Assembly (NCBI GenBank): GCA_007922195.1
Contig: ML681971.1
Span: 4,897,721-4,961,720, forward strand
DNA: 64,000 bases
Direction: 5' to 3'
Origin: Podocnemis expansa
Taxonomy: Eukaryota > Chordata > Testudines > Podocnemididae
Below, in pieces: positions 391-37,042 of the stretch. Numbering within the stretch: position 1 is the first letter of the stretch; each line of letters begins with the position of its first letter. The position numbers and the translations under genes are program-made. The notes beneath the pieces were generated by a model. It searched no databases. It saw only the letters and a list, made by a program, of their open reading frames with translations, and had not been told where the DNA came from.

Positions 391-575
391 TCTTCTTCGA
401 GCAGCTGCTCACATACATTCCACCTTGGGTTTGCACGTGCCAGCATGCTCGAACACCGGAAGCTTTCGCCTAGCCCCCGCTGGGGGACCAGCGGTGGCGC
501 ACCCTGGAGTGGCGCGCGTTCCACCCCGGTTAAATATCCCGCTGGTCCGGTAGGCGGTCAGTTTTCTTCTTTCCG
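391..575 (+). repeat. DIRS left inverted terminal repeat
   Basis: The segment starting TTCTTCGAGCAGCTGCTCAC and running through the CCGGAAGCTTTCGCC and TTAAATATCCCGCTGGTCC motifs is present in reverse complement at 5950-6175. A TTAAATA motif near 529 precedes the gag ORF by about 95 bp and may form part of the element's promoter. That promoter role is inference. Confidence 0.9.
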
Positions 576-623
576 CCATTAGTGTCGGACACCGGGAACA
601 TTAAGAAAACGTCAACAGGGGCT

Positions 624-2819: not shown

Positions 2820-2937
2820 TGGGAACCACGAGGGCGGCGAACCAAGAACCCACATACAGGATCGAGACAGACCCCCATTCCTGAACAGACTCTTCCCTTT
2901 CTATTCCCAGTGGGCCTCCATCACTACAGACCGCTGG

Positions 2938-4758
2938 GTGCTAACAACGGTATGGCATGGATACTCGCTACAGTTCCGTGCCAGGCCCCCCAACAACCCT
3001 CCCCCTTCCCAGTCCCTTTTCATGGACACCGCTCACGAACAACAGTTGGATCTAGAGATAAACAAGCTCCTCCAACTGGGTGCAGTGGAAGAGGTCCCAG
3101 AGGAAGAAAAGGGCAGAGGATTCTACTCAAGGTACTTCCTGATTCCCAAGTCAAGCGGAGGATTGAGGCCCATTCTCGACCTGCGGGGCCTCAACAGGTT
3201 CCTTATGAAGCTGAAGTTCAGGATGGTCACTCTCAAACAAATAATCCCCTCGTTGGATCCGGGGGATTGGTTCGCCACCCTCGATCTGCAGGATGCTTAT
3301 TTCCACGTGTCGGTTAAACCACAGCACAGGCGTTTTCTACGCTTCGTGCGAGGACGCCAGCACCTGCAGTTCACAGCACTCCCATTTGGACTTTCTCTGG
3401 CACCAAGGGTGTTCACGAAGTGTATGGCAGTGGTGGCGGCACACCTCCGGAAAAATGGCGTTCACATTTTTCCGTACCTCGACGACTGGCTGATCCGAGG
3501 CCGGTCCCGACAGCAGGTACAGACCAATGTCCACATGGTCCAATCCCTGTGTCATCTCCTGGGACTTCTCATCAACGAACAAAAGTCCCACCTGAAACCA
3601 GCCCAGAGACTAGAATTCATTGGAGCCGCCCTAGACTCAAGGCAGGCCAGGGCCTTCCTGCCACAGATCAGATTTGAGACTATGGCCAATATAATTACCG
3701 ACTTACAGCGAAATCCAACTACTACGGTCAGGCATTGTCTCAGCCTTCTAGGACACATGGCGGCAACTACCAACGTCGTTCCACTAGCCCGCCTCAGGCT
3801 CAGGCCATTACAGGACTGGCTGGCCTCAGTGTTCCGTCCGGGCAGACACGCAATGGACAGGACCGTGTCGATCCCAGGCAAAGTGCTAGCCCAGCTAGAA
3901 TGGTGGCAGCGTCCCCGTTTCGCGATGGAGGGCGTCTCATTTGGGATAGTCCGCCCCTCAGTGACGCTGATCACAGACGCTTCGGATCACGGCTGGGGAG
4001 CCCATCTCAGCCTAGGTATCAGCACGCAGGGCAGGTGGTCATCGGCGGAAAAGGGGCTCCATATAAATGTAAAAGAACTTCGAGCCATCAGATTTGTTTC
4101 TCGCGTCTTCCGAGCGCACCTGAGGGGTCACTCAGTCCAGGTGCTAACGGACAATTCTGCAGCTATGTTTTATGTGAACCACCAGGGGGGAGCTCGCTCG
4201 CTATCCCTGTGTCGCGAAGCCATACGCCTGTGGGACCTAGCCATCAGCAACAAATTTCATTTGACGGCGTCACACCTACCGGGGGTCAAGAACAGCGAGG
4301 CCGACCACCTCAGCAGACATTTCAATTCCATGCACGAATGGTCGCTACACCCCGAGGTCCTGACCCCAGTCTTCCGCAAGTGGGGGTTTCCACTGATCGA
4401 CCTGTTTGCGACTCGGGAGAATCGCAAATGCCACAGGTTCGCTTCACTGAGGGTAAGGGAACAGGGGTGTCTCCCAGATGCGTTCCTGCTGTCTTGGTCA
4501 GGACCCCTGATGTACGCATTTCCTCCCTTCCCGCTGATTCACAGGGCCCTGATGAAGGTTCGACAAGACAAAGTGCAAGTGATCTTGATTGCCCCGTCAT
4601 GGCCGCGGCAGTACTGGTACCATATGCTGGGGGACCTCTCCATTGCCGAGCCCCAAGAGCTGCCTCGGAGACCCGATCTCCTGACCCAAGACCAGGGCCG
4701 CCTCTTACACCCCAACTTGCAATCGCTCCACCTGACGGCTTGGAGGCTATCTGGCTAA
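2938..4758 (+). CDS. pol: DIRS reverse transcriptase-RNase H-methyltransferase-like polyprotein
   Basis: This protein copies element RNA into DNA. The RT domain occupies roughly the first 270 residues, with LDLQDAYFHV, the fold around LPFGLSLAPRVF and the catalytic YLDDWLI box near 3473-3493. RNase H follows with TDASDHGWGAHL, NVKELRAIRF and TDNSAAMFYVNHQ. The C-terminal part (FPLIDLFATRENRKC, FLLSWSGPLMYAFPPFP) matches the Dam-like methyltransferase region found in DIRS elements. No ATG lies near the 5' end: the frame is open without a stop back into the end of gag (at least to 2818), so expression probably needs frameshifting or reinitiation. The given start is a GTG; the first ATG is at about 3022. 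No internal stop is seen. Confidence 0.93.
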   Translation: MLTTVWHGYSLQFRARPPNNPPPSQSLFMDTAHEQQLDLEINKLLQLGAVEEVPEEEKGRGFYSRYFLIPKSSGGLRPILDLRGLNRFLMKLKFRMVTLKQIIPSLDPGDWFATLDLQDAYFHVSVKPQHRRFLRFVRGRQHLQFTALPFGLSLAPRVFTKCMAVVAAHLRKNGVHIFPYLDDWLIRGRSRQQVQTNVHMVQSLCHLLGLLINEQKSHLKPAQRLEFIGAALDSRQARAFLPQIRFETMANIITDLQRNPTTTVRHCLSLLGHMAATTNVVPLARLRLRPLQDWLASVFRPGRHAMDRTVSIPGKVLAQLEWWQRPRFAMEGVSFGIVRPSVTLITDASDHGWGAHLSLGISTQGRWSSAEKGLHINVKELRAIRFVSRVFRAHLRGHSVQVLTDNSAAMFYVNHQGGARSLSLCREAIRLWDLAISNKFHLTASHLPGVKNSEADHLSRHFNSMHEWSLHPEVLTPVFRKWGFPLIDLFATRENRKCHRFASLRVREQGCLPDAFLLSWSGPLMYAFPPFPLIHRALMKVRQDKVQVILIAPSWPRQYWYHMLGDLSIAEPQELPRRPDLLTQDQGRLLHPNLQSLHLTAWRLSG

Positions 4759-4883
4759 CAGCAGAAGAACAGTCCTGCTCAGTTCCAGTAAAACACATCC
4801 TAGTCAATAGCAGGAAGGCCTCAACGCGTGCTACATATACGGCCAAATGACGGCGTTTTCGGCAGTGGGCACAAGGAAGGGAC

Positions 4884-5813
4884 TTGGACCCACACCTCGC
4901 ACCAGTGCAGGACATTCTAGACTACCTGCTGAAACTGAAGCAGGAAGGCCTCACCCTGGCCTCAATACGGGTCCACCTAGCGGCAATCGCAGCAGCGCAC
5001 ACACCTGTGGCTGACCGTTCCATCTTCTCATACCCTATGGTGACAAGATTTCTGAAGGGCCTGGAACGTGTCTTCCCTATGGTTCGGCCGCCCTCCCCGC
5101 AGTGGGATTTGAATATAGTCCTCACGGTCTTGTCAGATCCACCGTTTGAACCAATGGCCACTTGTCCGCTGTTGACTTTATCACACAAGGTGGCATTCTT
5201 GGTGGCAATTACATCCGCCAGGAGGGTCTCAGAACTAAGAGCACTCTCTTCCGAGCCTCCATACACTGTGTTCTTTAAAGATAAGGTGCAACTGCGTACC
5301 CATCCGGCGTTCCTTCCTAAGGTGGTCTCCCCCTTCCACCTTAATCAAGACATATATTTACCTGTGCTATGCCCCAAACCACACGGGTCAGCGGAGCAAA
5401 GGAGACTGCATACTCTGGACGTCAGATGGGCGTTAGCCTTCTACATTCAGCGGACGAAACCCTTTAGGAAGTCCACACAACTCTTCGTAGCGGTAGCGGA
5501 CCGCATGAAAGGAGGCCCAGTCTCGTCACAGACGATTTCTAATTGGGTGGTATCCTGTATAAAGACGTGCTACCGCTTGGCCCATGTCCCACTACCGGAC
5601 AGAGTACGGGCCCACTCAACAAGGGCACAAGCCTCCTCAGCGGCGTTTTTGGCTGGGGTCCCGATTTCAGACATCTGCCGCGCAGCAACATGGGCTTCCG
5701 TGCATACGTTCACCTCCCATTACGCAATAGTTCAGCAAGCCAGAGATGACGCGGCCTTTGGCACGGCGGTTCTTCGTTCCGGTGCCTGTAACTCCACCCA
5801 CCAGCCAGCATAA
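4884..5813 (+). pseudogene. DIRS tyrosine recombinase, one nonsense codon near the N-terminus
   Basis: This is the integrase-equivalent that inserts the circular DNA copy. About 309 residues are open from 4884. The catalytic signature of tyrosine recombinases is visible: Arg in SARRVSELRAL, His-x-x-Arg in AHSTRAQ, and a terminal Tyr in HTFTSHYAIV. The same frame is already open upstream (STRATYTAK at about 4825-4847), then hits TGA at 4848-4850, and continues as RRFRQWAQGRD. That pattern shows a single point nonsense mutation near the N-terminus of the domain. No ATG lies at the 4884 start. The copy is therefore probably unable to make full-length recombinase, but could be mobilised in trans. 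Confidence 0.88.
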
Positions 5814-9494: not shown

Positions 9495-9682
9495 TTCTGG
9501 CTGACCTAGTGAGGAGGGCTTTAAACTAGGTTCAATGGGGGAAGGAGACCAAAGCCCACAGGTAAGTGACAATGTGGGGGATCTGGGGGAAGGGATGGAA
9601 GTTGGGGGAGGGGGGGCTAGGACTGTAACACCAGCAATAAAAGAGAAGGTAGTTGGAACAAGGGGGGGGGGGCCGGATCAAA

Positions 9683-9782
9683 NNNNNNNNNNNNNNNNNN
9701 NNNNNNNNNNNNNNNNNNNNNNNNNNNNNNNNNNNNNNNNNNNNNNNNNNNNNNNNNNNNNNNNNNNNNNNNNNNNNNNNNN
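9683..9782. other. Assembly gap of 100 N
   Basis: There are exactly 100 unknown bases, the usual placeholder for a gap of unknown size. The left side ends with a G run then CCGGATCAA. The right side begins with about 45 C and then CCGGATCAAATAAATG. The same GGATCAA word on both sides suggests the gap is a collapsed or duplicated contig end over a homopolymer. Confidence 0.95.
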
Positions 9783-9829
<47 letters not shown>

Positions 9830-9905
9830 ATCAAATAAATGTCTTAAGTGCTCTACTGAAGCCCCAATATGCAAGGAGAGTGGGGGAGGAGAACTCCAAG
9901 AAAAA

Positions 9906-10730
9906 ATGCAAGGAGGTTTATGTAATACAATTGAAAATCAACATGACAAAGTAGGGCAATTGGCCAGGTATCTTAGGTGCCTATACACTAATGCGAGGAG
10001 CCTGGGAAATAAGCAAGAAGAATTGGTAATACTAGCGCAGACAAGGAACTATGATATTATAGGAATAACGGAGACATGGTGGGATAGTCTGCATGACTGG
10101 AGCTCTGCCATGGATGGGTATAAACTGTTCAGGAAAGACAGGCAGGGAAGAAGAGGGGGAGGAGTAGCACTATATGTAAAAGAGCTCTATGACTGCTCAG
10201 AGCTCCATTATGGAAGTGGAAGCGTGCCAGTAGAAAGTCTGTGGGTTACAAAGAGAGGGGAAAGCAACAAGGGGGATGTTGTGGTGGGTGTCTGCTATAG
10301 ACCACCAGACCAGAAGCAGGAGGTGGATGAGGTGTTCTATGGACAACTAGCGGAAGCTTCTAGATCACAGGCCCTGGTGCTGATGGGGGACTTCAATTAC
10401 CCTGACATCTGCTGGGAGGCCAATACAGCAGTGCATGGGCAATCCAGGAAATTTTTAGAGAGTGTTGGGGACAACTTTCTAGTACAAATGCTAGAGGAAC
10501 CAAGTAGGGACCTTGCACCACTCGACCTGCTGCTCACAAACAGGGAAGAATTGATCAGGGAGGTAGAGGTAAATGGCAAGCTAGGCAGTAGTGACCATGA
10601 CATGGTTGAGTTCAGGATGCTGATTAAAGGAAGGAAGGAAAGAAGCAAAACAAAAACCCTTGACTTCAAAAAAGCAGATTTTGGCTCCCTCAGGGAACTG
10701 ATGGGCAGGATCCCTTGGGAAGCTAATGTG
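9906..10730 (+). CDS. CR1 apurinic-type endonuclease domain (5' part of ORF2)
   Basis: This frame encodes the N-terminal endonuclease that nicks target DNA for target-primed reverse transcription. Visible family motifs are LYTNARSLGNKQEEL, IIGITETWWDS, GGGVALYVK, VVGVCYRPPDQ, LVLMGDFNYPDICW and GSSDHDMVEF. The Asn, Glu, Asp-Asn and Ser-Asp-His positions expected for exonuclease-endonuclease-phosphatase folds are present. The frame breaks at 10731, where another CR1 is inserted, and appears to continue at about 12057. The ORF is open for about 275 residues before the break. Confidence 0.92.
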
Positions 10731-12056
10731 AAAAATCATGGAGCAGCTTCTCAAAGAATCCATCCTGAAACACTTGGAGGAATGTAATCAGGAACAGTCA
10801 GCATGGATTTACCAAGGGTAAATCATGCCTGACCAACCTCATCGCCTTCTATGATGAGATGACTGGATTTGTGGATGCGGGAAGAGCCGTTGATGTGATA
10901 TACCTTGACTTTAGCAAGGCTTTTGATACGGTTTCCCACAGCATTCTCATTGGCAAATTAAGGAAGTATGGGTTAGATGCATGGACTGTAAGGTGGATAG
11001 AAAACTGGCTAGAACAACGGTTTCAGCGTGTAGGAATCAATGGCTCCATGTCAAGTTGGCAGGCAGTAACAAGTGGTGTGCCCCAGGGGTCGGTCCTGGG
11101 GCCAGTTCTGTTCAATGTTTTCATTAATGATCTGGATGATGGGATAGATTGCACACTTAGTAAGTTTGCAGATGATACCAAACTGGGGGGAACGGTAGAC
11201 ACCCTAGAGGGCAGAGACAGGATTCAGGGAGACCTAGACAAACTGGAGCAGTGGGCCAAGAGGAATCTCATGAGGTTCAACAAGGATAAGTGTAAAATCC
11301 TGCACTTGGGACGAAAAAACCCCATGTACTGCTACAGGCTGGGGAGTGATCAGCTAAATAGCAGCACTGGAGAAAAGGACCTGGGAGTCATGGTGGATGG
11401 GAAGCTAGATATGAGTCAGCAGTGTGCTCTTGCTGCCAAAAAGGCCAATGGCATACTGGGCTGCATCAGAAGAAGTGTTACCAGCAGATCGAGGGATGTG
11501 ATCATTCCCCTCTATTCTGCACTAGTGAGGCCACATCTGGAATACTGTGTCCAGTTTTGGGCTCCCCACTACAAAAAGGACATGGACAAATTAGAGAGAG
11601 TCCAGAGGAGGGCAACCAAAATGATCAAAGGGCTGGAGCACAAGCCCTATGAAGAAAGACTGAAGGAACTAGGCTTATTTAGCCTGCAGAAGAGAAGACT
11701 GAGGGGGGATTTGATAGCAACCTTCAACTACTTGAAGGGTTGCTCCAAGGAGGAGGGAGCTCGACTGTTCTCGGTAGTAACAGAGGGCAGAACGAGAAGC
11801 AATGGCTTCAAGTTACAGCTGGGGCGGTCCAGGCTGGATATTAGGAAAAACTTCCTTACTAGGCAAGTGGTGAAGCATTGGAATAAGTTGCCTAGGGAGG
11901 TGGTGGAATCTCCATCTCTGGAGGTGTTCAAGTCCCAGCTGGACAAAACACTGACTGGGATGATCTAATGGGAGCGGTCCTGCTTTTTTTGGCAGGGGGT
12001 TGGACTAGATGACCTCGTGGGGTCCCTTCCAACCCTATGATTCTATGATTCTATGA
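10731..12056 (+). mobile_element. Nested 5'-truncated CR1 LINE
   Basis: The left edge begins inside RT-encoding sequence (ATCATGGAGCAGCTTCTC, equal to the outer copy at about 12805). The right edge is the CR1 3' end (CTATGATTCTATGATTCTATGA). It carries an intact RT 3' ORF at 10859-11968 with [13 protein letters not shown] and FADDTKLGG. The target sequence reads TGTGAA on the left and TATGAA on the right, a possible very short duplication. Confidence 0.88.
10859..11968 (+). CDS. CR1 reverse transcriptase, partial (nested copy)
   Basis: The 369-residue frame contains [33 protein letters not shown], the catalytic FADDTKLGG box and the C-terminal CR1 block [14 protein letters not shown]. The N-terminal part of RT and the endonuclease are absent because the copy is 5'-truncated. 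It cannot be autonomous. Confidence 0.93.
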
Positions 12057-12221
12057 AGGGGAAAGGAGTCCAAGAGAGTTGGTTATATTTTAAAGAAACC
12101 CTGCTAAGGGCACAGGAAGTTGCCATTCCAATTAGGAGAAAGAACAAACATGTGAGGCAGCCAGAATGGCTTAGCAGAGAACTCTGCTCTGAGCTTAAAC
12201 ATAAAAAGGAAGCTTAGTCAG

Positions 12222-14039
12222 ATGACCAAGGAGGCATATAAAGATATTGCTAGGGACTGCAGGGATAAAATCAGAAAGGCCAAAGGACAAATGGAGTTGC
12301 GGCTAGCAAGGGATGTAAAGGATAACAAGAAGGGGTTCTACAAGTATGTTAATAACAAGAGGAGGATCAGGGATGGTGTAGACCCCTTGCTGAATGGGGC
12401 AGGCATCCTTGTGACAGAGGATGAGGAAAAAGCTGAAGTGGTCAATGCATTTTTTGCTTCAGTTTTCACAGGAAGGGTCAGCTCCCAGCCCACTACCATG
12501 GGTGTCGCAGATGGGAGAGAAGAAGACAGGCCCTTGGTGACGGAAGGTCAGGTTAGGGACTGCTTAAAGAAGCTGGATGTGCACAAGTCCATGGGGCCGG
12601 ACAAACTGCATCCAAGAGTGCTAAGGGAATTGGCCGATGAGATAGCAGGACCACTGGCCATTATCTTTCAAAACTCATGGAGAACAGGGAAGGTACCAGA
12701 GGATTGGAAAAAAGCAAATGTAGTGCCTATTTTGAAGAAAGGGAAAAAGGAGGATCCAGGGAATTACAGACCAGTCAGCCTCACCTCAATCCCTGCAAAA
12801 ATTATGGAGCAGATTCTCAAAGAAGCCATCCTCAAACACTTAGAGGAAAATAAAGTGATCAGGAACAGTCAGCATGAATTTACCAAGGGTAAATCATGCC
12901 TGACCAATCTCATTTCCTTCTATGATCAGATGACTGGTTTTCTGGACGCAGGAAGAACCATTTATGTGATATACCTTGACTTTAGCAAGGCTTTTGATAC
13001 AGTTTCCCACAGCATTCTCATTGGCAAATTAAGGAAGTATGGGTTGGATAGGTGGACTATAAGGTGGATAGAAAACTGGCTAGATCAACGGTTTCAGCGT
13101 GTAGGAATCAATGGTTCCATGTCCAGCTGGCAACCAGTAACCAGTGGTGTGCCCCAGGGTTCGGTCCTGGGGCTGGTTCTGTTCAATATTTTCATCAATG
13201 ATCTGGATGATGGAATAGACTGCACTCTCAGTAAGTTTGTGGATGACACCAAGCTGGGGGGAACAGTAGACATGTTGGAAGGCAAGGACAGGATTCAGGG
13301 AGACCTAGATAAATTGGAACAGTGGGCCAATGGAAATCTTATGAGGTTCAATAAGGACAAGTGTAAAATCCTGCACGTGGGACGAAAAAACCCCATGCAC
13401 CGCTACAGGCTGGGAAACATTCAGCTAAGTAGCAGCAGTGTAGAAAAGGACTTGGGGGTCATGGTGGATGGGAAGCTAGATATGAGTCAGCAGTGTGCTC
13501 TTGCTGCCAAAAAGGCCAATGGCATACTGGGCTGCATCAAAAGAAGTATTACCAGCAGATCAAGGGATGTGATCATTCCCCTCTATTCTGCACTGGTAAG
13601 GCCACATCTAGAATACTGTGTTCAGTTTCGGGCTCCCCCCTACAAAAAGGACAGGGACATGCTAGAGAGAGTTCAGAGGAGGGCAACCAAAATGATTAAA
13701 GGGCTGGAGCACAAGCCCTATGAGGAAAGACTGAAAGCATTAGGCTTATTTAGTCTGCAGAAGAGACGATTGAGGGGGGATTTGATAGCAACCTTCAACT
13801 ACTTGAAGGGATGCTCTAAGGAAGATGGAGCTCAGCTGTTCTCGGTAATAACAGAGGACAGAACGAGGAGCAATGGTCTCAAGTTGCGGTTAGGGAGGTC
13901 GAGGCTGGATATTAGAAAAAACTTTTTTACTAGGAGAGTGGTGAAGTCTTGGAATGAGCTGCTGAGGGAGGTGGTGAAATCTCCATCTTTGGAGGTGTTT
14001 AAGGCCTGGCTGGACAAAACCATGACTGGGATGGTTTAG
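12222..14039 (+). CDS. CR1 reverse transcriptase, 3' part of outer copy ORF2
   Basis: This 605-residue frame covers the linker, fingers, palm and C-terminal domains: [55 protein letters not shown] and [14 protein letters not shown]. The palm box reads FVDD instead of the usual FADD, but both catalytic Asp residues are kept. Continuity with the endonuclease at 9906-10730 is interrupted by the nested CR1 and by an indel near 12213-12222. The ATG chosen is simply the first in frame after that indel. Confidence 0.92.
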
Positions 14040-26825: not shown

Positions 26826-27005
26826 CAAATGCAGGATTTATAATAAATATTCTTAAACAAATTAAGCAGCTATGGAATAAGAGGAAAGATCCTCTCATGG
26901 ATCAGTAACTGGTTAAAAGATAGGAAACAACGAGTCAGTTTCAGAGTGAAAAGAGATGAATATCAAGATCTCCCAAGGATCTGAACTGGGACCAGTGCTG
27001 TCCAG
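26826..27005 (+). mobile_element. CR1 reverse transcriptase fragment
   Basis: The stretch TAAACAAATTAAGCAGC to GAACTGGGACCAGTGCTGT has the wording of CR1 RT around the VLGPVLF motif, but is frame-broken. It stops abruptly at about 27005, where the CpG-rich viral-type promoter begins. This edge probably marks the left border of the endogenous viral element. Confidence 0.65.
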
Positions 27006-27039
27006 TAGTAAAGGGCCCTACCATCAATCAAACCGTTTC

Positions 27040-27470
27040 CACGCCCCATTTCCACCGGAAATCCCTCCTACCGACTTCCGGACCTGCCCCCTGCCCACCT
27101 GCCACCGGAAGTCCCACCCCCAGCCAGTCACCTGACATCCGGTCCTGCACTCTGGGTGTGACTTCCGGCGGAAGTGGGATGGCATGGACCCTCCCAGAAC
27201 GCCTTTGCACCAATAGGAGCGGGTTTTGCCCCCGAGAGTGGGATTGGTCGCAGGAGGGCACGTGGCGGGGGCAGCCCGCCCCAGAAGAGGGTCATGTGAC
27301 GCTCTGCCAATAGGAAAAGGTTTTAGATCGGGCCGGCGGTGGCTCCTGGGCCAATCGAGAGGGCTGGAACCCCATGCCCGATCTGTGGGCCTCGACGGTT
27401 GGTGGCAAATGGCGCCGCCCCCGGAAGTCTGGGGCTTTAAAGCCCTACGACCTCTGGCTCGTGCGCAAGA
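27040..27470 (+). promoter_or_regulatory. CpG-rich promoter with ETS and CCAAT site array
   Basis: CCGGAA/CTTCCGG ETS-type sites lie near 27055, 27075, 27105, 27161-27176 (two facing cores) and 27421. CCAAT boxes lie at 27210, 27307 and 27351, with an inverted ATTGG at 27243. TTTAAA at 27436-27441, inside GGGCTTTAAAGCCC, sits about 57 bp before the ATG at 27498 and could serve as a TATA-like element. The block is much richer in GC and CpG than the DNA to its left or right. Promoter activity is inference. Confidence 0.7.
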
Positions 27471-27497
27471 CTGCGTGGTTCAGAGCTTGTGCAGAAC

Positions 27498-28897
27498 ATG
27501 GACGCCTTCACCACCCCCGCCAGGCCTTCGGGATTGGTTTTGGCTCCTACGGCCCCTCAGCGTAGAAAGCGCCGCAACAGCGACAGTTTGGAAGAGGAGA
27601 GCCCTTTGGCTCAGCCTTTGTTGAACACCTCAGACTCCGAAACCCCAGAGATCTTGTATCGGCCTTTGTTCGACACCTCGGACCCTGAAACCCCAGAGAT
27701 CTTGTATCAGCCTTTGTTCGACACCCCGGACCCTGAAACCCCAGAGATCTTGAGGCAGCAGACGGAAAGATTCTCTCCGACACCAACGGGTCAGGAGGTA
27801 AAGGAATGGGGAGACTGGGCGATCTAGTTGGCATGGCTTTAAAAAGCCAAAAGCCTAAAGGGTAGTGAACTTACAACTCTTTTCTTCTTGTCTTTCAGGA
27901 ACCCCAGGATGGTGTTGCAGCAGACAAGCGAGATGAAGCAGGAACAGCCCAACGCAGGGTGAACATCGATACCCTTACCAGCCCCGTGAGGCCCTCGAGA
28001 TTCGTTTTGGCCCCTAAGGTGTTGGTCTGGCATAGAAAGCGTTACACCAGCAGCAGTTCGGAGGAGGAGAGCCCTTTGTTCAACACCCCAAAGATCTTGA
28101 GGCAGCAGACTGAAGGACTCACACCAACACCAACACCAACCTGGCAAGAGGTAAAGGAATGGTGAGGGGTAACTAACTTGGCTGGCATAGCTCCCAAAAG
28201 AAAAACAAAAAAGCCTAAAGGGTGGCAGGCCTACAGCTCTTTATTCGGAAAAAATAACATCTTTCTTGTCTTTCAGGAACCCCAGGCCTGCACTGCAATG
28301 GGTGACCAAGATGAAGCCGGACCATCTTGTTTCTGTTCAGCACATGTACACGTTAAACACGAGGAGACTATGGAAGAGGGGTATAATAATTTTGTAAGAG
28401 GGCTCGGCCTGGATAAGATTGAGCCGGTGCCCGTTCCTCAGCGTAGAAGAGTCATGCGATCTATTATGCGTATTGCTGTCTTTGCTACCCTTGATTACTG
28501 TCTTAAGGAAAAGATGTATGAAGATTGTGAAGGCTGTCTCATAGATGCTCCAGGCCAGCTGAGCCATGACTGCACGACTTGGACTTCAGAGACTATAAAC
28601 CACAAACTTCGGGGTCTGTGTGCTGAAGTGTGTTATGAAAGTTTGTTAAACACTGTCATTGCCATCAGCTATATTTTGGAATGTCTGTATATAACTAGGG
28701 ACCTTTTAGACATGGGAGTGAACATGGTGCGTGCTGTGCAATTCAGTCCAGACCCTTCCAACGCGCTATGTGAGATGCCTAAACCTGACATAAGGGATGT
28801 CTGGTTACATGATCCTGTGAAGCGTCTGGTCCGCACCAAACATTACAGAAGCCTGCTTAGGAGGCCGCCCATGTGTAAGAAATCCAAAAAGATGTAA
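27498..28897 (+). CDS. Spliced viral-type gene, weak adenovirus E4-34K-like C-terminal domain
   Basis: Three exons, 27498-27797, 27899-28150 and 28277-28897, join in phase 0 to give about 390 residues. Donors are CAGGAG/GTAAAGG and CAAGAG/GTAAAGG; both acceptors are TTGTCTTTCAG/GAACCCCAG. Exons 1 and 2 are duplicates of one another: each has a TxPxRPSxxVLAP start, a basic patch (RRKRRNS; WHRKRY), an acidic EEESPL block and ILRQQTE. Exon 1 also holds three copies of a DTSDPETPEIL-like repeat. Exon 3 carries the globular part, with a Cys/His motif (CEGCLIDAPGQLSHDC) recalling the adenovirus E4-34K/ORF6 family, and a basic C-terminus (KKSKKM). The similarity is from pattern memory and needs a profile search. 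All exons are open with no disabling mutation, so the gene could be expressed. Confidence 0.65.
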
Positions 28898-28933
28898 TAG
28901 TGTGGGGACATACAAACCATCTTGTTAGCTGTA

Positions 28934-29114
28934 AATAAAATGCATGTCTGAAAAGGTTTTTTTGGACTGTTTGTATAGGTCTTTTAAATAAAAAAAATGT
29001 TTTGTTTTTTTTTGTGAGAACCAGTTACTGTGTCTTTGTGTATTTTCAGGGGTAAAAAAAAAAAAAGCTGTAGTAGACTCCTGTGGGGTAGGGGGAGGGT
29101 CTGTTTAAAATAAA
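28934..29114 (+). terminator. Polyadenylation signals after the E4-like gene
   Basis: AATAAA occurs at 28934-28939, about 37 bases after the TAA stop, and again at 28987-28992 and 29109-29114. The first is well placed for cleavage of the spliced transcript, with T/GT-rich sequence just downstream. Confidence 0.65.
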
Positions 29115-29670
29115 GCAGTGATGCTTGAAAACATGTTGGGGCATGTTTCTGGACAGGCCCAGCCACTGAACTGCAAGGGTCTCCATTCACAGGTAGCTGC
29201 ATGGAGTTGGCTGAATGCTATTGGACAGTTTAAAAAGAAAAATGTCAGGAATTTGTAGGCTTGATGGGTTTCCCTTACAATAATGGGTGGAGGGAAATTT
29301 GAAAACAAAAAAATCAGGAATTGTGGGGGGACAATTTAAAGTCTTGACAAGTTTAAAAATAATATTTGACAAGATTAAAGGCTCCCTTGAAATGTTTTAA
29401 GAAGCCTCTAGCATCCTTTTCTTAAAAAAAAATATTTACTGTAAGGACAGTGAAACAGTTTAAAGCAGTGTGTGACACATCCATTTTATTTAAAAAAAAA
29501 AAAACTTTGACACATGAAAAGACTCCCTAAGTCATTGTGCAGTGAGGAGAGGGGTACACTGTATCATTAAAATGACTTAATACTGTAAAAAGAGTCTACA
29601 GGGAAAAAAATAAAAAAAGCACCACAGATTTTTAAGAGCAAAATTGGATTCTTATCTGTATTCCTTGAAT
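29115..29670. other. AT-rich spacer between the two viral transcription units
   Basis: The spacer contains A-runs (about 29426-29434, 29492-29505) and no convincing frame on either strand. Confidence 0.45.
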
Positions 29671-29675
29671 AGAGA

Positions 29676-29794
29676 GGGGTGGTACCACACCCCATTGAAA
29701 CAAAAGGTTGGGAAAGGTATATAAACCTCTTGTTTCAATGGGGTGGTACCACACCCCATTGAAACAAAAGGTTGGGAAAGGTATATAAGCCTCT
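29676..29794 (+). promoter_or_regulatory. Duplicated TATA promoter with a perfect inverted repeat
   Basis: A 55-bp unit (GGGGTGGTACCACACCCCATTG through a TATA box and CCTCT) is present at 29676-29730 and again from 29740, an offset of 64 bp. Each carries TATATAA (29718-29724 and 29782-29788). The second unit includes a perfect 16-bp inverted repeat, TTGTTTCAATGGGGTG at 29730-29745 and its complement at 29752-29767, with a 6-base centre. A start site about 30 bp after the second TATA box (near 29815) would begin the leader exon. The palindrome may bind a dimeric factor. Confidence 0.75.
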
Positions 29795-29814
29795 GCTTTT
29801 TTGGAAGACGCCCT

Positions 29815-29846
29815 TTTTCCTACCAGAGCAGGCCTGCAAATAGGAG
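29815..29846 (+). other. Untranslated leader exon of the polymerase transcript
   Basis: The exon ends at AATAGGAG/GTAAGTT (donor GT at 29847-29848), a near-consensus donor placed about 60 bp after the second TATA box. Its 5' edge is an estimate from TATA spacing. It contains no ATG, and its likely partner acceptor is TTTATTGCAG at 29944. Confidence 0.6.
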
Positions 29847-29960
29847 GTAAGTTGCTTGCTTTTAACTTTAAAAATATCTATTTTATAATGTTACTAGTTT
29901 GGCCAAGTGATCCTTATTAATGAGGATACACTTTTTTATTGCAGGCTAACCCTGCTTAGC

Positions 29961-32506
29961 ATGGAAACACCACCTTCAAGCTGTGTTTCACCAGGGCAAG
30001 GTAAAGTCCTGTTTGGACTATAGCTAGGCTTATTGCTATTTAAGAGGGGTGTGGGGTTGGGTATTAAACAGGGTTTGAGGAATTTGGAGAATCCTACTAA
30101 CTAAACTATGCTTCTTTAAATCAAAGATATATCTACACATGAGAAAAATCATGGCCCAGCATGTTTTCGCCCTGTGTTGGAAGGTAAGTAGATGCAGTTG
30201 GTTTTTAAATGATGGGGTTTCTTGGAAAGTATTTAAAAAAACTGCTTTTTAATTCTGAATGGTTGTGATTATTTAATTTGCCTAAGTCTATGGTTTTTTG
30301 GTGTCTTTCACAGCAGCAGGCTTTGAAACTGCCCCTTTTTGTCAAGCATATGGTTGTGTCTGGTTAGGGTGGTGTGGTTGTTGCAATCTGGTTTTTGCTG
30401 AATTTAAATCTGCCCTGCTTTTTAGTGTGAGAGCATGGCAAGACTGACTTTTAAGTTAAAGTATTTTGTTAGAAACTGATTTTGAAAACTGCTTTATAAA
30501 ATTGTTGGGATCTGTTTTTTGCTTTAGTTAAATCTGCCCTGCTTGTTAGTGTGAGCACATGATGGGCTTTTTAATTTTTTTTTTTTTTTTTTTTTTTGCT
30601 GGTTTAGGGTCTGTTTTGCTTATTTAAAACTGCAGTTTTATTTTTAGGTTTTCTTTAATTTAGCCAGGGTCTCTTTTACTGTATTTTTGTTTTTAGCCTG
30701 ATTACATGGCAATGCGTTTTTAAGGCTTAAAATGTTTAAAAAAAAATTTTTTTTTTTTTTTTGCTTATTTAAAACTGCAATTTTATTTTTAGGTTTTCTT
30801 TAATTTAACCAGGGTCTTTTTTACTGTATTTTTGTTTTTAGCCTGATCATGTGACAATGTGTTTTTAAGACTTGAATTGTTGGTGGGGTCTGAACTAACC
30901 CCTTTCCACAGAGGGCATGCCTAGGCTTCAAATCGTAAGATTTGAATCAGGGGTAACTCTAAGGTGTGGGTACTCACTGTCCCTGAAATAGAAGATTTTT
31001 AAATAGAAAGGTTAACCCATTTGAAAGTTGATAAGAACCTTTTATAATAATGTTGTCTGCTTTACAGGTCTATCAAAAAATGAAAAAAAATCTTTGAGTT
31101 TTTCAATGACCAAAAGAAAAAAGAAAGAGGAAAATCCACCACCAATGACTGACAAAGTAATGGAGTGCTGTAAATATAATTTGTTTCTGTGTTTTTAATT
31201 AGATTTTGTGGTAAAGTTAAAGGGGTTTTATTTGATCATCTTTTTTCCTTCTTAGGCACGGACAGTCCTCCTGGTGCCCAACTCAAAAGGAAAAGGGAAG
31301 ATACAGCTGAAAAGGAAAATTTACCACCACCAATGACTGACAAAGAAATGGAGTGCTGTAAATATATTTTCTTTGTGTGTTTTTATAGTAACAAATAGGG
31401 AGCTTGTTTTGAAAAGTTAATTTTTTCTAAATAGGTTAGGTTTGACATCTTTTTTCTTTTTCTACTCAGCCAGTGACAGCTCCGCTGATGTCATTGTGGT
31501 CACAACTCCGGGAAAAACACCAAAGAAACAGAAAACCCATCCTGAGCCCTTGGCAACATCACCTGTGCAAAACAGCAAGGGAGTCCTGAGGAAACAGCAG
31601 GAAACCCCCGAGCGCAGATACATCAAGCCCAAGGACAAAACCAAAAACTCTGGTACAAAGCACCACACCTCCAGTTCCTCAGTGGTCAGCACCACACCAA
31701 GCCCTGAGAGAGCTGTGAGTGAAAGCACACGCATTCACAAACCCAGAGCACATGCTCTAGGGGTTGTGAATCAAAAAACACGGAGCGAAAGCTCCAGCGC
31801 TGATAATTACATTCAACATCCACACCTCAACAGTACTGATGCAGTTCTCCAGTTCTGGGGAAAAATGATAGGTGAATATAATGCTTCATTCAAAGAGCTG
31901 ATGTTTGCTGTACTGTCCAGGGTTCCAGAAGAAAGATTGACTGAAAACTATGTCAAAAAGGCAAATGTTCTCGATAAATATTTCTGCCTTCCTGATTGTG
32001 TTTTTGAATCTGCACAGCTAGTTGTGGGAAGGGGTACCCGACCTATTCAAAAAGGGGGAGGTCTTTTCAGGGATAAACGGATGACTGCCAAAAAGTTAAG
32101 GGCCAGGGTCATTGTAAAGATTTTAAAAAAGGCTAAGGCGGTGATGAGGAGAAAAAAACAAAAAGAGAGGCCCGCTAGTGACGTGCCTGAGAATGGGGAT
32201 GTGGAAATTGACCCACGGGGTGGCGATTTAGAAAATTCCCCAGACAGCTCTTTAGGCAGCTCACCATCTGCACCCCCCGAGTCTGGGGTAGATTCGGATC
32301 CCCACCCTGATACCTATATGGAGCGGGTGAGGAGTTGGCAGCGGGAATTACCTAGATTTAGGGGCACAGTATACAATGATGAATTTCGTTTTGTCAATCT
32401 TGAGAGAATCAGTTCAGCCAGACGGGTGGTTGAAGCTGTGCACAGGGGTATGCAGTCGGTTCTCGATGAGATTAACAACAGGTTAGACCCACATGATTAC
32501 GTTTAG
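29961..32506 (+). CDS. Polymerase gene 5' part: spliced N-terminal region up to an in-frame TAG
   Basis: Exons: 29945-30000 (ATG at 29961), 30127-30183, 31068-31169, 31256-31357, and 31470 onward. Every junction is phase 1, every exon stays open, and internal lengths are 57, 102 and 102 nt, so the chain is in frame and runs about 445 codons to TAG at 32504-32506. The acceptor at 30126 (CAAAG) has a poor pyrimidine tract and is the weakest link. The short exons encode a hydrophilic, Lys-rich leader. Exon 5 encodes a Ser/Pro/Lys-rich tail, then a conserved block (LQFWGKMIGEYNASFKELMF; NLERISSARRVVEAVHRGMQ) of the type that precedes the exonuclease in Polinton/adintovirus polymerases. The frame continues without shift beyond the TAG. 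Confidence 0.72.
30389..30885 (+). repeat. Two tandem duplications in a T-rich intron
   Basis: A unit containing TAAATCTGCCCTGCTT and TTAGTGTGAG appears near 30400 and 30525, a period of about 124 bp. A second unit containing GCTTATTTAAAACTGCA and TTTTTAGCCTGAT begins at 30618 and 30763, a period of 145 bp. Long T runs lie at about 30567-30597 and 30747-30762. Confidence 0.8.
31068..31357 (+). repeat. Tandemly duplicated 102-nt exons
   Basis: Exon copies 31068-31169 and 31256-31357 have equal length, the same phase (1-1), and matching 3' halves ending NPPPMTDKVMEC and NLPPPMTDKEMEC before a GCT/GTAAAT donor. Their first halves differ. The spacing is 188 bp, so the flanking intron was duplicated with the exon. 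Confidence 0.8.
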
Positions 32507-34123
32507 TTACGCTTGGAGGGTCAGAATTTAACTAATCCTCTGTTTTCGGTGAGAAGGAATAGGGATAAGCTCTCTGCTGAAGATTTCTTAAACCACACTT
32601 CTAAACTGTTACAGAGTAATAGAGAGGTGCACGTCGATGGGACGTTACGCCTCGTTGTGACAGTTGTAAGAAACATGGGTGGGGGTGGCCGCAGGGTTTT
32701 GAATTCCATCCTTAACAGTGAAATTCTCCATAAAAAGAGGCAGTGCTTGGTAGACCTGACTTACGCTGACTCGAATCTGTGTTTTGCTGGCAGGCTTTTG
32801 GCCAGCATTTCAGGCCGCAGGCTTACAGATGCAGAACTATTAGATGGGGCGAGAAAGCTGCATCAAGAACTGGGGTGGTCAGATCAAAAAAAGGTGATGC
32901 TCAGTGACATAGTGGTGATTGAACAGCATTTACGTGTCAACATTCAGGTGGTACTTTATACAGCGAAAGGTCGTTGGGGTTTTTTTAAAACGGGAGGCCC
33001 TGTGTACCCCAAGACGTTTTTTGTCCTGCTGCATGATGAGCATTACTATGGAGTTTTGGATGTGAAAAGGTTGTTTGGGGCCAAAAATTATTGCAAGTTT
33101 TGCCACACTGTATACAGTCATGACCACTCTTGTAGATACCGCTGCCGTCTCTGTTTGAGAGAGACGTGCTCGGTAAACACAAGCATGGGTCGGAGAGATC
33201 TCAAGAGTTGCCCCAGCTGCAGGCTGTTTTGCCAGTCCAAAGAGTGTTTAGATGGCCGTCTAGAAGCTGCCTCTAAAAACCAAGTCGAATGTCGGTTTAA
33301 AACTTTCTGCAAGGGCTGTGACTCTTATGTGGACAAAGGACATAAGTGCAAAGGCCGCCAGTGTAAGCAGTGTCACAGTAAGATCCCCCGTGGCAGCAAG
33401 ATAGAGGACCACTTGTGTTTTCTAAACATCATCCAAAAACCCAAAAGGTCAGAAAAGTATATTTTTTACGATTTTGAGTGCATGCAGGAGACGGGGGTGC
33501 ACGTGCCCAATTACATTTTTGCTATGTCTCTAAAGCCAGAAAAATCTTGGGAATTTAAGGGTGGCGAGTGCCTTTCTGACTTTGTTAAAACCTTTATTGG
33601 CAAAAAGTTTCAGAAGTACACATTCATAGCGCACAATTCCAAAGGTTACAATGCTTACTTTGTGGTGAAGGAGTTGCTAAAGGAAAAGATGGATGTGGAA
33701 TTGATAACTCAGGGCAGTAAACTGATGTGTGTGGAAGTTAAGGCTCTGGGCATCCGTTTCATAGACTCTCTAAACTTCCTCCCCATGAAACTTAGCAAGC
33801 TCCCACAGGCTATGGGGTTTGAGGATGCCAAAGGGTACTTCCCACATTTTTTTAACACTTTGGAAAACCAAAATTACATGGGACCTGTGCCCGGGGTGGA
33901 GCACTATGGGGTTGACAGCATGATGCCCCAGGAGAAAGCAAGCTTTCTTGACTGGTACCGGGGCCATCAAAATGAGACCTTTGACTTACAGAAAGAGCTC
34001 GCGTATTACTGCCAGCAGGATGTGAACATTTTGAGGCGGGCCTGTATGCTGTATAGAGGGGAGATCATGAAAATGACGGCAAAGTCAGAAGCTGTGCAGG
34101 CCCCCCTCAAACACCCCAGCTAG
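32507..34123 (+). pseudogene. Protein-primed family-B DNA polymerase, exonuclease region, 3'-truncated
   Basis: This continues the frame of the preceding exon beyond the TAG for 538 codons. The first part is a conserved N-terminal domain (NPLFSVRRNRDKLSAEDFL). A Cys-rich zinc-binding segment of about 110 residues has many CxxC pairs (CKFCHTVYSHDHSC, CRLCLRETC, CPSCRLFC, CKGCDSY, CKQCHS). The 3'-5' exonuclease domain follows: Exo I is YDFEC, Exo II is HNSKGYNAYF, and Exo III is YYCQQDVNIL. In Exo II the position normally Asp is Asn (AAT at 33650-33652), so proofreading would be impaired. The palm and thumb motifs are missing: homology stops near MKMTAK at about 34090 and about ten unrelated residues lead to TAG. 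The copy cannot encode a working polymerase. Confidence 0.85.
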
Positions 34124-37042
34124 TGCCCCCCAAATGCCTGCCCCCACACCAGCTACTGCTCCCCACACACTGACCCCCTACCCCAGCTATTACCACTGGC
34201 TCCCGTCTTGCCACTGGCCCCCCAACTCCCTGCCGTGCCGCACAGTCTTCCCCTGCTTCCCTGGGCCAACCCCCTCCCCACATCCTTTCCCCATCAGGCC
34301 AGCTCGCCTATCTCCAAACCAGGGACTTCCCTAACACCCCCTGCATCCCCCTGAATTTCCCAGCACCCCCCAAGCTGTCACCTAGTAACAGTGATATACC
34401 AAATTAGTAAGCATTCCCTACACCCCCCCACAATTTCAAGTCCTGAAGAGAATACTGCCCCAACCCTCCCCACCTGGCCACCATGTCACTGGAGCAGCAC
34501 TGGCCGAGGTGGAGGCTCTGAGCATGCTCAGTCAGAGCAGCCTCAGGCTGGAGCCTCAGCCTGGGCTGGGACAAATCCCTACCCTCCCAGAATGCCAGAG
34601 GCATTGCTGGCCCTCGGCACCCTGGGGCACGTGCCCCGAAAACCACTCCCTGGCCTAGAGTCATGCAATATTTTACCTTTCCCACTGGGCCAGAGGAAGG
34701 GGGAGATTTAAAAAAAACACCCTACCCTTGGCTCGTGGACGCATGCAGACTAGCAGAGCAGCCTGCAAGAAGTCCGTGTCACAGCCTGGGGATCCCTGCC
34801 ACTACAGCTCTCCCCCAGTGGCAGGGTGCTTTTCAGCCTGTCTGTGACCCTCACAGCTTTGCCACAACGCTTTTGTGCTGTGACAAAACAGTTGAGAACC
34901 GGTGGGCTCAGGGGTGCTCTGTAGCGTCCTCAGCACACATTGCATCCTTCCAAAACAAGGACAGCTGCTGCTCTAGCTCACTGGAGGGAAGGCAGCCTAT
35001 AATGTTTCCAACCAAGTGAGTCTGTGTTAGTGAACAGTTCCCTGAGGAACAATCCAGCAATAGTAGGGATGACCTCAGAAATACAAGAGTCCTAGTTTAG
35101 GGCACAAGACAGCTGATTACTGCACATTAAATGACCTTGCCAATTATTCTACTTATCTTCCCACCTCTAACTAGTGATAGGATTAATGTTTTACTTTATG
35201 TATTTTGTGTAAGCCATGATTCTGTAGGAGTCATTTTTAATGTATTTCACTACAGCTCAATTAGTTACTTCTCCACAGAGTGACCCTGGCAGCTTTTTGG
35301 GATTCTTGACAGGTTACTAAGTTGTACATTAAGAGAAACATTCCTAATAGGCTGAATATCTGGACTTGGTGCCCTTTTTTGTGCTCTAAACCTAGTTATT
35401 GCCTCTCTCCTTTGAGGAAAGGTGTGCTACAAAGCCTTCTTACAAGGCTGAAAGCCAGCTAGACTCCAACACAGATCATGGATTTAAGGATATGAAAGGC
35501 CCCATTACAAATGAATCAGGTTCTCTGTCTCACTGCCTAACTTACATAGTAGTAAATTAAGAGGAAATTAAAGAAAAACATTCCTAACAGTATGGCAACA
35601 GTATTCATTCACCCTCAAACACAAGTCATGTAGATAGGCTGTTTTCCTGAGGGGCTGAGAAATGTTTGATAGCATTCATAGCTATTAGCTAAGCAAGCTC
35701 ATGAAATGTGCTTCAGCTTTCATATCACATGAGAGGGTCAGGAAAGAATAGTCTCAGCACTATGCACCAAAGGGAATGTTCTTCCCTGACTTTCAGGTAA
35801 TATGCAAGCTCAAGGGTTGCCTTGTTTTGAAGGCTAGAACTGGTCAAAAAGATTGCAAACTGACTTTTCCATGAAAAGTCAAGTGCAATTTTAAATCAAT
35901 TACAATGAAAAGTCAGGAGCTGGACAATGCTAGAAGTTGACTATAATAAAGCAGAATGAGCCACAAGTCAATATTTGAGATAAAAATAAAAACTTTTAAA
36001 ACCAAAACATTGCTTACAGTTACAAGTGTGCAGGCCCATTTTCTGCTCATACTTGCAAGCTTACTGTCAGAAATACACTGACTGTTTGATTTTAGAGGAG
36101 ACACCAATTTCTCAAGTCAAGCATTTTTATTCCCTTCAATTCAGCTGAATTAGGTGCTGTGTTATACAGAGGCACACTTGATTACAAAATTCAGTTCCTT
36201 TTAGCCTATCTCCTGGCCGCATGGTCCCTCCCCCTGATCCATCATTGGAGGACAGAACAGGGTATACAATCTTTCCGTTCCGCCTATATTATAATTAGCT
36301 ATGACCTATATTACTTCCCCTGTAGCTTGTTTGCCTATAAAGTCTCCACCTGTAGGTGTGTTGGTTAATATGTATAAGCTAATTAAGCATGCGTGCTAAG
36401 GGGTTTAGGGTATTTTGAGTCAAATTGTGGTTTTTGACTAGTTTAAGCTGGTTTTGCTCTTGCTGGTTTTCTTATCTTACACCTATGCCAGAAACTTCAG
36501 CAGAACCGTTATCTCTCACATTACTCACACATTTCATGCTAGGACAATGAATAATTAGACTAAAATCAGCATAGCATCAAATGTTCACGTAAATGCTTGC
36601 AGGATCATGGCTGAGACTGCACTCTCATAAAGGAATGTCCCTTTGTATTCAATATAATACAAAAGAAATAAAGAAATGTTTACAATGAACTGGATACCTA
36701 CTTTTAGGTGTTGTAAAGGAAAATAGACATTTTAAAAAGCACTGATAGCCTTTTTCTTTAAAAAGGCTTTGTATAATGAAAATTAAAACTTATTTCTCAA
36801 TTTAGACTGTGCCTTTCTAGCAGTTTGATCTTATTTGTCACAACTGAATGAATTATTAATTTTAAGGGATGTTTTACAATTGTTCTCCAAGAAGGAAGAA
36901 CCATTTAAAACCAGAATAAAGAGCCTGTGTTTTTTTTCCTTCAGCTAAACAGGCTCATTGATTACAACAAAAGGCAAGGGAGTCTTGGCTTAAGAAACCA
37001 TCATGCGTGAAGAATTACACTGCAGCCCTACAATTAACAGGC
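34124..37042. other. Intergenic 2.9 kb, no gene recognised
   Basis: The first 300 bases are C-rich, with many CCCC tracts. A hAT-like end (TTGAGAACCGGTG) lies near 34891. The rest is AT-rich with only short ORFs and no recognisable repeat family. Confidence 0.45.

Follow-up and report, generated by a model that had tools for sequence, protein, structure and literature searches.

The left end of a Maverick/adintovirus-type provirus in the turtle Podocnemis expansa and the probable splicing of its end genes

Introduction

Do Mavericks, integrated DNA viruses whose intact vertebrate members have been reported as intronless (PMC8097293), carry spliced genes at their ends? The question is raised by a stretch of 64,000 nucleotides from Podocnemis expansa (assembly GCA_007922195.1, contig ML681971.1, positions 4,897,721 to 4,961,720; the whole stretch is hereafter the window), in which positions 27004 to ~34096 of the plus strand are the left 7.1 kb of a Maverick/adintovirus provirus. 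A first-pass annotation made from the letters alone had placed two spliced transcription units here, referred to below as unit 1 and unit 2, the latter ending in a family-B polymerase (PolB). Our analysis argues that the locus is probably a recent left-end provirus of the Maverick/beta-adintovirus type that has lost its right part, with cassette-like inverted repeats, spliced end genes and a spliced PolB leader.

Identity and borders of the provirus

The left border at 27004 is an exact (AGT)2 viral end, where the sequence opens AGTAGTAAAGGGCCC, and this start, identical or nearly so, is common to copies with unrelated flanking DNA. Homology sets in at 26998-27005 in six of 16 fetched stretches of other copies, and full-length PolB matches place the right limit of viral homology at 34095-34099, varying by copy; the span of 27010 to 34090 first assigned to the element was thus too short at both ends. 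The break at ~34096 falls inside the exonuclease part of PolB, next to an old repeat. A search of the whole 64 kb gave no right inverted repeat, and the presence of the left end only indicates an element whose right side was lost, amounting to about 10 kb if the element was full size.

Copies were sought across 2.39 Gb of genome. For the PolB piece at 32507-34123, identity to its matches elsewhere is 93-98%; 23 matches are nearly full-length at 98%, some of which lie on equal-sized contigs and may duplicate one locus. PolB gave at least 149 matches (matched stretches, not elements; 91 of 190 candidates scored) and unit 1 at least 125, many with stops (123 of 551 candidates scored). The 23 PolB matches, together with a left end common to differently flanked copies, show that the resemblance is not due to chance. 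Six short contigs (C1313, C1314, C1388, C1389, C465 and C512; 12-14 kb where size was seen) have PolB at a near-equal offset, which could reflect either free viral DNA or an assembly interrupted at repeats.

Inverted pairs of the 427-bp terminus were found with spacings of 13.5, 15.2, 17.0 and 17.9 kb, plus one pair spaced by 3.0 kb, and four of the five elements bounded by inverted repeats have perfect 6-bp target duplications, the fifth matching at 5/6 positions. The 3.0-kb stretch (C21:30397-33432), which ends in an inverted repeat on each side and is flanked by a perfect 6-bp target duplication, is presumably an internally deleted, non-autonomous form of the Maverick. In several copies PolB is open for 1520 codons (Pfam DNA_pol_B_2, 4.2e-53), and Pfam gave no OTU match in this 1520-amino-acid (aa) frame. 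On a right-hand piece from the same genome (L037) the integrase is evident (rve, 3.8e-12, with Chromo, 4.2e-6, spanning integrase-frame residues 339-376), as is an adenovirus-type protease (Peptidase_C5, 2.4e-4, at its cut-off); the least secure core gene is the ATPase, with an IVa2-like match of 0.0064 that lies below its cut-off, and the capsid position holds a 449-aa frame that had no match in Pfam, PDB or IMG/VR.

Vertebrate Mavericks/Polintons have been described with (AGT)2//(ACT)2 ends, 6-bp target duplications and a length of ~17 kb, with PolB and ATPase encoded on the strand opposite to integrase and protease, and with an accessory region at either end (Barreat and Katzourakis 2021, PMC8097293). 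The inverted repeats, target duplications, PolB, integrase, protease and ATPase match are these published marks and identify the family as a vertebrate Maverick, and an integrase with chromodomain is a published mark of adintoviruses (PMC11071296). On its termini, the target duplications of related elements, PolB, integrase and protease, the provirus is an integrated linear double-stranded DNA virus of the Maverick/Polinton-adintovirus kind, beta-adintovirus-type, in agreement with the group named at the outset. Both units belong to this one element, because the order within 27004 to 33007, unit 1 then PolB, recurs in copies L011 and L012, and PolB lies 2.0-7.3 kb downstream on the same strand for 27/125 unit-1 matches (among the matches listed).

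Gene structure of unit 1

Two plus-strand units, each with a TATA-like box and GT-AG introns, are present as first described (Table 1), and comparison of copies favours introns in both, a reading of splicing drawn from sequence. The predicted unit-1 donors read GAG/GTAAAG and the acceptors CTTTCAG/GA (slash at the junction), and the dinucleotides at all four sites are kept in 7/7 copies. Indels relative to the window, counted by hand with shared indels taken once per copy, were multiples of three in 25/31 cases in exons and 2/22 in introns; corrected exon borders were used for the exon and intron frame counts. Intron length was in frame with the window in 5/7 copies for intron 1 and in 0/7 for intron 2. 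Among 15 distant loci that were fetched, the exon-1 donor GT was present in all 11 with an exon-1 match, and an AG preceded exon 3 in 10/10 examined. Exon 2 is a tandem duplicate of exon 1 plus the beginning of exon 3. A separate exon-2 match is absent from the fetched 2.5 kb upstream of exon 3 in one distant copy (L045), an arrangement that we read as that before the exon-2 duplication.

The ratio of non-synonymous to synonymous substitution (dN/dS) in exon 3 was 0.13-0.68 when the window was set against 10 copies drawn from the 15 loci (L051, L052, L056 and L057, with no exon-1 match, and L058, which was short, were excluded). Database matches to unit 1 came from turtle genomes throughout (14/14, then 52/52 in a second search) in searches that score only candidates with exact words in common, and included a match at 4.9e-19 in Emydura, a side-neck turtle. 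Several of these relatives carry isoform X1/X2 names, and the Cys-x2-Cys-x9-His-x-Cys cluster of exon 3 is kept at its four positions in 35/43, 38/42, 37/38 and 33/39 rows. Pfam, adenovirus families included, and PHROGs gave nothing significant for unit 1, IMG/VR gave no relative, and the Rb-binding LxCxE motif occurs neither in the three unit-1 exons nor in the 52 unit-1 family proteins. For the exon-3 domain, AlphaFold2 reached a mean predicted local distance difference test score (pLDDT) of 44.7 with 15 sequences and 64.8 with 44, and Foldseek against PDB returned 11 matches at E <=10 and none <=0.001, so that no fold is claimed.

Gene structure of unit 2

The PolB fragment of the window matches Pfam DNA_pol_B_2 at 6.6e-14 over profile positions 8-157 of 468 and is preceded by a Cys-rich stretch. 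Profile searches thus placed one of the two predicted proteins, unit 2, and left unit 1 without a significant Pfam match; the polymerase first assigned to the end of unit 2 is there as an N-terminal part with its Cys-rich stretch, the catalytic half being missing and the frame holding a TAG. Seven of the ten predicted unit-2 splice sites are kept in 13/13 copies; at the remaining sites the figures are 11, 12 and 12 of 13. In all five close copies among these 13 the frame of exon E is intact. The 3' part of exon E is in common with that of exon F, which makes an exon duplication probable. The small exons may be translated into PolB or may form a leader only; a Chrysemys PolB record (P0015) begins inside the large exon.

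Directly upstream of unit 2, positions 29690-29800 hold a 64-bp tandem duplication with a GGTACC palindrome and a second TATA box. Repeats lie inside the longest proposed intron, at 30226-30881: the window has a 145-bp, 1.8-copy tandem array there, and several other copies of the element have additional copies of 30226-30561.

Right-end gene and inverted repeats

The inverted repeat of ~600 bp includes the unit-1 TATA-like box, the start codon and the first ~34 codons. Positions 27004-27600 of the window match the right end of copy C642 at 94%, and as the repeat holds promoter and start, the right end starts nearly the same protein, which then diverges. The predicted right-end gene in C642 consists of 75 codons, a GT-AG intron and a continuation opening LDDDF with a Cys cluster. 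From 15 end pieces, of which L067 was a left end and L069 matched neither probe, 13 right-end matches including C642 were obtained; with the partial L072 dropped, 11 others were compared with C642, and donor and acceptor are kept in all 11. A turtle protein (P0007, residues 1-90) matches the right-end first exon at 1.2e-11 and another (P0005, residues 79-117) the second exon at E 0.004; the two exons were not matched by any single turtle protein. One ancestral end gene, duplicated by way of the inverted repeat, seems to have given rise to the left and right genes, which then diverged.

Evidence against splicing and alternative explanations

Several observations weigh against spliced end genes and a spliced PolB leader. 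Full conservation of GT and AG is common in the background, at 62/99 GT and 104/144 AG in unit 1, and at 12/31 and 21/36, and 17/32 and 19/33, in two unit-2 stretches, and conservation of splice sites alone is therefore weak evidence. The contrast in frame between exons and introns rests mostly on unit-1 intron 2, other intron lengths being steady, and the four measured unit-2 introns are in frame in 9, 9, 13 and 9 of 13 copies, so not clearly looser. Frame is kept in only 3/7 copies for exon 3 of unit 1 and in only 7/13 for exon E, where the difference lies largely in an A-run. Some distant copies have lost a predicted exon-2 splice site: the acceptor in L044 and L046, with L053 doubtful, and the donor in L054. 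In exon 3, dN/dS has a median of 0.65 and a maximum of 1.02 over 55 pairs. At the right end, C642 has a stop in exon 2' that is absent from the other 11 copies, and L063 has an 8-base deletion there. Many copies are decayed, and PolB lies within 16 kb downstream of only 29/125 unit-1 matches (among the matches listed).

The alternative that survives best is an ordinary Maverick fossil with unspliced frames, its apparent introns being short non-coding spacers and its polymerase starting at an ATG inside the 31470 exon, the same exon in which the Chrysemys record begins. Such a fossil would agree with the intronless genes reported for intact vertebrate Mavericks (PMC8097293) and with the several introns that hold their length across copies. 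That report is based on modelling of conserved core genes, so that end genes may have been outside its view (PMC8097293). In the window, without splicing, the exon-1 frame stops at 27827 and the exon-3 frame opens only at 28166, whereas in turtle database proteins, known as protein records alone, a start resembling exon 1 runs on into the exon-3 domain. Indels in unit 1 differ between exons and introns, and a comparable arrangement is kept in right-end copies. We regard the unspliced fossil as unlikely though not negligible, and the spliced provirus as the probable reading.

A host gene, or a viral gene captured by the host, outside any virus, would suit the finding that all 52 returned unit-1 relatives are from turtle genomes and none from IMG/VR. 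It is very improbable and was rejected on the link of unit 1 to the viral terminus, as unit 1 starts inside the viral inverted repeat, PolB follows it in L011 and L012, and its genome matches number at least 125, many with stops. That the units are separate insertions side by side has next to no probability and was also rejected, nothing having been found in its favour against the shared order in L011 and L012 and the same-strand PolB downstream.

Decay of the window copy

The PolB frame of the window is broken by one TAG at 32504-32506, where 16/16 other aligned copies have a sense codon, and the polymerase catalytic half is absent. Truncation and stop together mean that this copy kept no working polymerase and, judged by its sequence, is a recent fossil. 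The claim that the element had kept its multi-exon genes thus holds as far as comparison of copies favours the introns, and fails for the polymerase. Over 1519 sites compared with seven close copies, 10 substitutions are private to the window (5, 1 and 4 by codon position), whereas pairwise differences among close copies are mostly third-position (210/412, the pairs not being independent). This pattern fits a window copy that has decayed since integration and that derives from a family formerly under selection. Reptile rates are slow, about 0.5-1 substitution per site per thousand million years, and would put the insertion roughly at an age of the order of ten million years.

Feature map and neighbouring sequence

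Table 1. Predicted features of the provirus piece and its right flank, in window coordinates.
Feature	Position	Strand	Remarks
Left terminal inverted repeat, ~600 bp	27004..27600	+	(AGT)2 end; holds unit-1 promoter, start codon, first ~34 codons
Unit-1 TATA-like box TTTAAAG	27436..27442	+	present in 7/7 aligned copies
Unit-1 exon 1, 100 codons, phase 0	27498..27797	+	48-bp tandem repeat at 27611-27752; in frame in 6/7 copies
Unit-1 exon 2, 84 codons, phase 0-0	27899..28150	+	self-similarity, protein similarity; in frame in 6/7 copies
Unit-1 exon 3, 206 codons + stop	28277..28897	+	C84-C87-H97-C99 cluster; in frame in 3/7 copies
Poly(A) signal AATAAA after unit 1	28934..28939	+	others at 28987 and 29109
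Unit-2 TATA box	29782..29787	+	second copy at 29718 in tandem duplication
Unit-2 untranslated leader exon	29810..29846	+	start inferred from TATA box; donor 29847, GT in 13/13 copies
Unit-2 exon B, first ATG 29961	29945..30000	+	both splice sites 13/13; coding length 13/13
Unit-2 exon C, phase 1-1	30127..30183	+	acceptor 13/13, donor 11/13, length 13/13
Unit-2 exon E, phase 1-1	31068..31169	+	acceptor 13/13, donor 12/13; frame 7/13; A-run varies between copies
Unit-2 exon F, phase 1-1	31256..31357	+	acceptor and donor 13/13; frame 12/13
Unit-2 large exon: N-terminal extension, Cys-rich region, PolB exonuclease part	31470..34096	+	acceptor 12/13
Right flank, old interspersed repeat, non-viral	34097..34595	+	at least 39 other places at 72-81% identity (40 scored of 4916 candidates)

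Elsewhere in the window, plus-strand frames at 534-5813 gave LAP2alpha-like, reverse transcriptase and RNase H matches and a phage-integrase match below its cut-off, and belong to what we take to be, probably, a DIRS/Ngaro-type retrotransposon. Frames with endonuclease and reverse transcriptase matches at 9621-14039 are a long interspersed nuclear element (LINE), which seems to be fragmented. Neither Rfam nor ARAGORN gave a match in the window.

Proposed organization and comparison with known systems

We propose that each ~600-bp inverted repeat would act as a portable promoter and first-exon cassette. The left repeat would drive a multi-exon accessory protein of 100 + 84 + 206 codons with a Cys/His C-terminal domain, the right repeat a different two-exon protein with a near-identical start, and a second, internal TATA promoter the polymerase, via a spliced leader followed by small exons of matching phase. 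The symmetry of the exon phases (0-0 at the left, 1-1 before PolB) would permit exon skipping and, on this proposal, would explain the tolerance of duplicated exons. Both end genes may act early on the host cell, like adenovirus E1/E4. The wider proposition, for which we see the chances as evenly balanced, is that in a turtle Maverick lineage the long inverted repeats are a duplicated promoter and first-exon cassette, each end splicing a near-identical N-terminal start onto a different protein and exon duplication diversifying these; this would amount to an E1/E4-like early programme, arranged independently, in viruses described as lacking introns. If true, such a programme, nuclear and spliced at both termini, would bring Mavericks closer to adenovirus biology, and gene surveys built on long unspliced frames would miss Maverick host-interaction genes. 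The young, near-identical copies make splicing testable from RNA data.

Spliced end genes may be new for Mavericks. A limited literature search on excerpted sources, with the founding adintovirus paper outside its coverage, gave no report of early genes being spliced in adintoviruses or Polintons, and the mention of splicing in the excerpts of one adintovirus-related paper concerns fly reads (PMC8363768). Among turtles, an integrase sequence obtained from RNA of a Kinixys tortoise, with 95.16% identity to the box turtle adintovirus, suggests that a relative is transcribed (PMC10812802).

The turtle element resembles vertebrate Mavericks in its (AGT)2//(ACT)2 ends, in a length of ~17 kb and in its 6-bp target duplications. 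It has their PolB, integrase and protease and a weakly matching ATPase, the same division of these genes between the two strands, and accessory regions at both ends. It differs in end genes and a PolB leader that look spliced, although the main PolB frame is one 1520-aa exon, and in an inverted repeat that holds a promoter and start codon. With the beta-adintoviruses, whose reference is the Terrapene box turtle adintovirus, it has in common, compared by definition (PMC11071296), an rve integrase with C-terminal chromodomain, an adenovirus-type protease and a related PolB in turtles. Adintoviruses are further marked by a hexon recognisable by BLASTp against known adintovirus hexons and by an N-terminal OTU-like domain in PolB, for which Pfam gave no match in the 1520-aa frame. 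Mavericks have been assigned to the broad adenovirus lineage, their particles not having been observed (PMC8097293).

The closest parallel to the proposed layout lies in the adenoviruses themselves. Adenoviruses place spliced early regions, E1 and E4, at the two ends of their linear genome with transcription directed inward, and the turtle element likewise has spliced-looking genes at both ends, read inward. It differs in that unit 1 has no significant Pfam match, adenovirus families included, and, to our knowledge, adenovirus inverted repeats do not encode a shared protein start.

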